Source: Actinomycetota bacterium
Lineage (GTDB): Bacteria; Actinomycetota; Thermoleophilia; Solirubrobacterales; 70-9
Assembly (NCBI GenBank): GCA_018268575.1
Contig: JAFDWF010000073.1
Location: 1-64,000 of the forward strand
Length of the DNA: 64,000 nucleotides
Reading direction: 5' to 3'
The position numbers and the translations under genes are program-made. This document shows, piece after piece, positions 57,039 through 58,018 of this stretch; the first letter of the stretch is position 1; every line of letters starts with the position of its first letter. Below the pieces are notes generated by a model, which had not been told where the DNA came from, did no database searches, and saw only the letters and a list, made by a program, of their open reading frames with translations.

Positions 57039-57330
57039 GGGGCTTTGCATGGGGTTCGGCCACAGGGACGCACGTCTGCGGGGGCTCCGCCGTCGACGGG
57101 GCGTCGTCACGGAGATGCCACGTCCTCGGACGGCCAGGACGCTGCGTGGTTCCTTATCCACCTATGGCGGGGATTTCGAACCACGGAGTCTCCTGACCGT
57201 TCGGGATCCGGGAGGAATCGTGACGTCCTCCGTCCCCGGCGCTCCTCCCGCCGGGGACCCGTGACGATCCCCGCGGCCCGCCCGGACCCTCTGGCATCCG
57301 GGCGCCAGCGGGCAATGGCCGCGTCCCTTA

Positions 57331-57469
57331 GAGTCCCTTTCAGAATGCCCCGCGCACGCCTGGCGGCGCGGGGCACACTTCGCGGGGCGACGTCCTCGGC
57401 CGGCCGGCGTCCTTGCCCCGCTTGGTCCGGCGCTCGCCATCCGCGCACGCGGCATTCTGAAAGGGACTC
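57331..57469. mobile_element. MITE-like element with perfect 19-bp ends and TTA duplication
   Basis: GAGTCCCTTTCAGAATGCC at 57331-57349 is exactly inverted at 57451-57469, and TTA flanks the element on both sides (57328-57330 and 57470-57472). The interior of about 100 bases has no open frame. The right TTA copy is the complement of the TAA stop codon of doxX, so the insertion preserved the stop. Confidence 0.75.
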
Positions 57470-58018
57470 TTACGCCGCCGCGCCCTCGGCGCTCGTTGGC
57501 GCTCCCGCCGCCTCCGCGGCCTGCTGCTTCTGATGCGCGGCTTTTGCGGCCGCCAGGGTGACGGTCGAGCCGAGCGCGCCGAGGGCCAGGGCGCCGAGGG
57601 CGGCGGCCGCGCCGGACTCCTCGATGCCGAGGGCGGAGTCGACCGAGATCGGGCCGGGGCCGCCGTCGACGATCAAGAGCAGGGCGGCGATGATCGCCAG
57701 GTTGAACTCGTAGCCGCCGCCCGATACCCAGAAGCCGTTCTTCCAGTGGACGGTACGGATCGCGGTGATCATCGTCGCGATCAGCGAGGCGGCTGCGGCG
57801 GGGGTGAAGGCACCGAGCACGATCGCGGTGCCGCCGAGGGTCTCCGAGGCCGACGCCGCGTGGGCGTTGGCGCGGGCGGGCGCGAGGCCGAGCTTGTCCA
57901 TCATCCCGGTGGCCCCCTCGATCCCCGGGCCGCCGAACCAGCCGAACCACTTCTGGGTGCCGTGGCCGATGAACAGACCACCGATGACGAGACGAGCGAG
58001 CAGGCGTCCGAGCTTCAT
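57470..58018 (-). CDS. DoxX family membrane protein
   Basis: 182 residues with four hydrophobic helices. The N-terminus RLVIGGLFIGHGTQKWFGWFGG and the segment TMITAIRTVHWKNGFW are DoxX motifs. The C-terminal 30 residues are Ala-rich and extend to the edge of a MITE-like insertion, which supplies or preserves the TAA stop. Its molecular role is not defined from sequence. Confidence 0.9.
   Translation of the reverse strand: MKLGRLLARLVIGGLFIGHGTQKWFGWFGGPGIEGATGMMDKLGLAPARANAHAASASETLGGTAIVLGAFTPAAAASLIATMITAIRTVHWKNGFWVSGGGYEFNLAIIAALLLIVDGGPGPISVDSALGIEESGAAAALGALALGALGSTVTLAAAKAAHQKQQAAEAAGAPTSAEGAAA

Follow-up and report, generated by a model that had tools for sequence, protein, structure and literature searches.

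The 139-bp element at positions 57331-57469 of the window, i.e., of the whole stretch of 64,000 nucleotides that was analysed, is supported as a non-autonomous transposon (MITE) and as a deletion derivative of an element of about 164 bp. It probably belongs to a MITE superfamily in which a conserved structured core passes between different transposon ends, the two arms of a copy are homogenised by template switching and some copies may be kept in mRNA 3' ends. Multiple copies, target duplications, empty sites, a shared core, covariation and an orientation bias of one subtype were all observed.

The element at the doxX stop codon

The element is bounded by perfect 19-bp inverted repeats (57331-57349 on the left, 57451-57469 on the right), and matches to these ends at up to three mismatches occur in the window at just these two places (0.01 expected). 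TTA is present on each flank (57328-57330 and 57470-57472), and the 139 bp have no coding capacity. These three features, regarded by the first-pass annotation as the marks of a transposon, were all borne out by the window sequence. The adjoining doxX, a minus-strand gene delimited by a codon-usage gene finder, has the right-hand TTA as its stop codon, and the duplication left this stop intact, in agreement with the earlier proposal that the duplicated triplet regenerates it. The parts of the element and its host gene are:

57328-57330, no strand: left copy of the TTA target duplication, read from the sequence
57331-57349, plus strand: left terminal inverted repeat GAGTCCCTTTCAGAATGCC, a family A end (31 end matches in the genome)
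57348-57405, plus strand: conserved core, left half, resembling type B (93% identity to core B)
57390-57396, plus strand: first box, ACGTCCT here vs. GCGTCCT in the family
57397-57406, plus strand: what is left of the central hairpin, 25 bp between GGCCGGCC repeats having been deleted, from comparison with siblings
57407-57413, plus strand: second box, GCGTCCT
57414-57450, plus strand: conserved core, right half, resembling type A
57451-57469, minus strand: right terminal inverted repeat
57470-57472, minus strand: right copy of the TTA duplication, equal to the doxX stop codon (TAA)
57470-58018, minus strand: doxX, the host gene, whose orthologue in the congener G006 stops at the aligned position and lacks the element

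Compared with its intact siblings, the window copy is about 25 bp shorter, a piece of its central hairpin, located between a pair of GGCCGGCC repeats, having been lost. Its interior is chimeric in that 57348-57405 resembles core type B while the remainder is of core type A; judged by its sequence, the copy is a recombinant of core types B (left half) and A (right half).

Folded as RNA, the element reaches -94.8 kcal/mol (z -7.6), and a strong hairpin adjoining a stop codon could be taken for a single intrinsic terminator of doxX, the alternative that the first-pass annotation had set against its own reading. This can practically be dismissed, as it is refuted by the copy number of the ends (about 18-23 sites, with duplications); moreover, the element is absent at doxX of G006 and there is no T-run in the sequence. 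At 57232-57265 of the window, in the 411-bp gap to the left of the element, there is a separate GC-rich inverted repeat, TCCCCGGCGC...GCCGGGGA, which is flanked on each side by CGTGACG.

Family A copies and their target sites

The source genome, a 4.3-Mb draft of 226 contigs that is 87% complete, contains dozens of places related to the element according to DNA searches. A genome search for the end sequence, which had been suggested as a check, gave 31 matches at up to two mismatches and none for the reversed control. Family A ends are carried by 23 fragments, some of which are element halves cut off by the end of a contig; this corresponds to about 18-23 sites. Intact siblings are mostly 162-167 bp in length, with TNA duplications at most of them, and many loci share the family A arms, the duplications being situated outside them. 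Taken together, the multi-copy ends, the TNA duplications, the full-length siblings and the empty doxX in the congener argue for a non-autonomous transposon rather than a single terminator, as had been concluded at first pass. We propose that the window element, derived by deletion from a family A element of about 164 bp, would have inserted into the doxX stop codon.

With regard to the choice of target, the duplication falls on a stop codon or at most one base from it in 13 of the 26 insertions scored. Only 7% of the TTA/TAA sites in the window are found at stop codons, while this holds true for 24% of sites with CTWAG, the sequence around most insertions (p = 0.004 for the insertion excess). 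Landing at stop codons is thus largely a consequence of target preference in a GC-rich genome, because 24% of CTWAG sites are stop codons anyway, and there is a moderate excess beyond a CTWAG-like preference. A second repeated hairpin, GTTGATGGGCCGAAAACTC...GAGTTTTCGGCCCATCAAC, was noted at different loci in two species, namely beside a family A copy on contig C159 (L010) and between the left-hand gene and doxX in G006 (L218).

Search for a transposase

The proposed mechanism starts from a putative transposase acting in trans that would recognise the GAGYCCCTTTCAGAATG ends, cut CTNAG-like targets and make the 3-bp TNA duplication. The first-pass annotation had recommended looking for a transposase flanked by the same ends, and this search yielded none for family A: seven PF01609 transposases are encoded in the draft genome, none of them with family A ends, and an autonomous partner with such ends was found neither in the 87% complete draft nor in relatives. 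Proteins with PF13340, the IS5 N-terminal domain, are absent from the source genome and were found only in the congener G011, with different ends. Members of the IS5 family of the IS1031 type produce a 3-bp TNA duplication and have ends beginning with GAG or GTG. The duplication and the style of the family A ends would fit a candidate partner of this group, while the source genome lacks PF13340.

A further element, L063, belongs to the IS982 family (NF033520) and has ends, CTAGATCACTGATTCCTAATC, that resemble the family C ends CTAGATGATTGATTCCTAATC; this likeness concerns family C and not family A of the window. In G011, an 883-bp IS5-type element flanked by CTAG (L230, contig C227) carries the ends GGCGTGTCTCCTAAC and is a possible partner for other end families of the genus. 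Three elements, one of D type, an insertion sequence and one of C type, adjoin end to end at CTAG sites at about 28.4-30.1 kb of contig C29 (L062). Where a family ends in CTAG, this palindrome may represent a duplication or belong to the end itself.

A conserved core between different ends

The core consists of an outer stem, an inner stem of 3-6 bp, two identical GCGTCCT boxes facing each other and a variable hairpin. The source genome has 52 occurrences of the corresponding pattern, GCGTCCTCGG-N(12-42)-CTGCGTCC, and 70 when the pattern is relaxed. Of the relatives, 55 out of 121 carry it, as do 80 of the 249 class genomes; a single genome can contain up to 74 copies, and the reversed control pattern is almost absent. 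The hairpin between the boxes varies freely while its pairing is kept, and the unpaired boxes are conserved while the stems vary. When all pairs of columns were scanned in an alignment of 47 short copies, the nested stem pairs ranked at the top, and one stem position is paired in 94% of these copies vs. 48% expected; a related test likewise points to covariation. The ranking matters more than the numbers, because related sequences inflate such tests. Covariation of this kind can also stem from template switching rather than selection. In a comparison with Rfam no family reached the gathering score, and our literature search found no description of the boxed-hairpin family.

Some copies deviate in their arrangement. 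In L029 (C171:5803-5965) and L018 (C226:14314-14475) the right box is swapped for the same nested repeat of about 44 bp, GACCCCCGCCGCAGGCGGGGTGCGAGGGCG[A/C]CAGCCCGAGTTCC, and L084 (G027:C9:1067-1277) comprises two identical core copies in tandem, 163 bp apart. The sole viral match is one boxed hairpin, L232, at positions 601-652 of the IMG/VR entry IMGVR_UViG_3300026300_000009, a contig classed as viral.

Within one genome, a core of about 130 bp is flanked by GAGYCCCTTTCAGAATG, GTGTCTATCCGAAAAC, GAGCCTGTCTCGAAAC, GTGCCCGTCCGGCAG, GGCGTCCGTCCGGGAAT and other ends, and a more distant but recognisable core by CTAGATGATTGATTCC, CTAGTGTCCTGAGTCG and CTAGTGGTGTGACC ends, the first of which are close to the ends of the IS982-family element L063. 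Family A ends as such were not detected in 60 relatives; among the actinobacterial entries of a genome-contig collection they occur at only two loci, both in the metagenome-assembled genome palsa_612. One of these is a 52-bp element with family A ends and no core, so that ends and core are separable. Since the same core is flanked by several different ends, one set of which is similar to IS982 ends, the best account, as far as can be judged from these sequences, is that the core has passed between transposon ends, a conserved rod-like structure that would be handed from one set to another, although drift, and not capture, may account for the differences among some end families.

Matched arms within copies

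In families A and C the two arms of a copy differ by about 0.4 mismatches, compared to 2.4-2.7 between copies, which is an upper estimate of the effect, because copies with good inverted repeats are over-represented in the sample. Individual copies point in the same direction: L022 lacks the same base from both arms and L025 has identical substitutions in both. Template switching in replication is a documented cause of joint changes in two arms (PMC8794818), and it is most likely that this process homogenises the arms here, those of a copy being kept matched by template-switch repair at the hairpin as the DNA is replicated. Template-switch hairpins are predicted to show identical changes of several bases in both arms, similar to those in L022 and L025; the mechanism has, however, been described for RNA genes (PMC8794818), and we did not find it described as a source of transposon-end diversity.

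A short subtype at gene ends

Short elements of about 85-105 bp constitute a separate group. They are located directly 3' of stop codons, their arms are unique to each locus and often include the host stop codon, and no transposon ends are recognisable. Co-directional short copies are sense-oriented in 12 cases vs. 1 in a first sample and in 12 vs. 1 in a second one drawn from other loci, i.e., 24 vs. 2 in total, and in the second sample the upstream gene reads into the short element in 21 of 22 cases. Long copies with terminal inverted repeats, in contrast, exhibit no orientation bias (10 vs. 7; distant families 6 vs. 5), for which reason the notion that every copy is a sense-oriented RNA element was rejected for the long types.

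Comparison with relatives provided both empty and filled sites. The empty sites of congeners at nusG-rplK and L112, and at rpsQ-rplN in the case of a long copy (gene names read from translations, without database matches), consist of a few bases without any palindrome, which indicates that the arms came with or after insertion. In orthologous filled copies at nusG-rplK and at the L107 locus, pairing is kept through compensatory changes. These sites also bear on the proposal that the core is a mobile unit entering existing palindromes such as terminators, with the arms representing target sequence. The locus-unique arms that include the host stop codon would agree with this, as would the frequent occurrence of some hairpin at the corresponding sites in relatives (L173, L182). 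Most empty orthologous sites, on the other hand, comprise a few bases and no palindrome (L163-L169, L172), and family A arms are found at many loci with TNA duplications outside them, so that we consider the proposal very improbable; in its strict form, a bare core inserting into existing palindromes, it is contradicted by empty sites at four loci.

The core could also primarily be a structured RNA of mRNA 3' ends, involved in processing, stability or termination, with its pairing under selection; transposon ends would then have acquired it secondarily, and the arms would match because the stem is preserved by selection. The sense orientation of the short subtype after stop codons (24 vs. 2), the compensatory changes in orthologous copies and the retention of the unpaired boxes while the stems vary speak for this possibility, whereas the unbiased long copies and the position of one copy within the rpsQ-rplN operon, an unlikely place for a terminator, speak against it. 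We regard it as a possible explanation whose chances are well short of even. A related suggestion, which is more tentative still, holds that a class-wide element with two facing GCGUCCU boxes acts in mRNA 3' ends and also rides as a passenger between unrelated transposon ends, new ends and 3'-UTR stems being created per site by template switching. Within the MITE superfamily that we prefer, the near-exclusive sense orientation of the subtype of about 100 bp after stop codons is probably explained by its being tolerated, or used, as an mRNA 3'-end structure.

Relation to known elements

The CGTC immediately 5' of the hairpin and the position downstream of genes recall CGTC-tagged REPs, which likewise have CGTC beside a hairpin, occur mostly downstream of genes and have no dedicated transposase known (PMC3733652). 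The elements might accordingly be REP/RAYT-like, with a Y1 transposase copying the CGTC-tagged hairpins in the form of single-stranded DNA. CGTC-tagged REPs are, however, 20-40 bp in length with stems of 8-9 bp (PMC3733652), whereas the elements described here measure 85-172 bp, possess two boxes and outer arms and, in their long forms, have inverted ends and target duplications. In addition, a Y1_Tnp protein is encoded in none of 12 genomes of the genus, and we consider such an origin very improbable.

Among established MITEs, Correia/NEMIS, ERIC, RUP and YPAL/RU-2 are comparable in being intergenic, geneless elements of about 100-200 bp with inverted ends, a target duplication and a long stem-loop (PMC2229807). 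They are defined by conserved ends (PMC2229807), while here the interior is conserved and the ends vary between families and between copies. The usual bacterial MITE combines conserved ends with a variable interior, and in the present superfamily this is reversed, with both arms of a copy changing together. The family is therefore a natural case for examining how transposon ends become diverse and whether template switching in replication shapes them. Across a bacterial class that has received little study, the sense-oriented subtype following stop codons represents a candidate RNA element, whose function can be tested directly by means of matched orthologous sites with and without the element.
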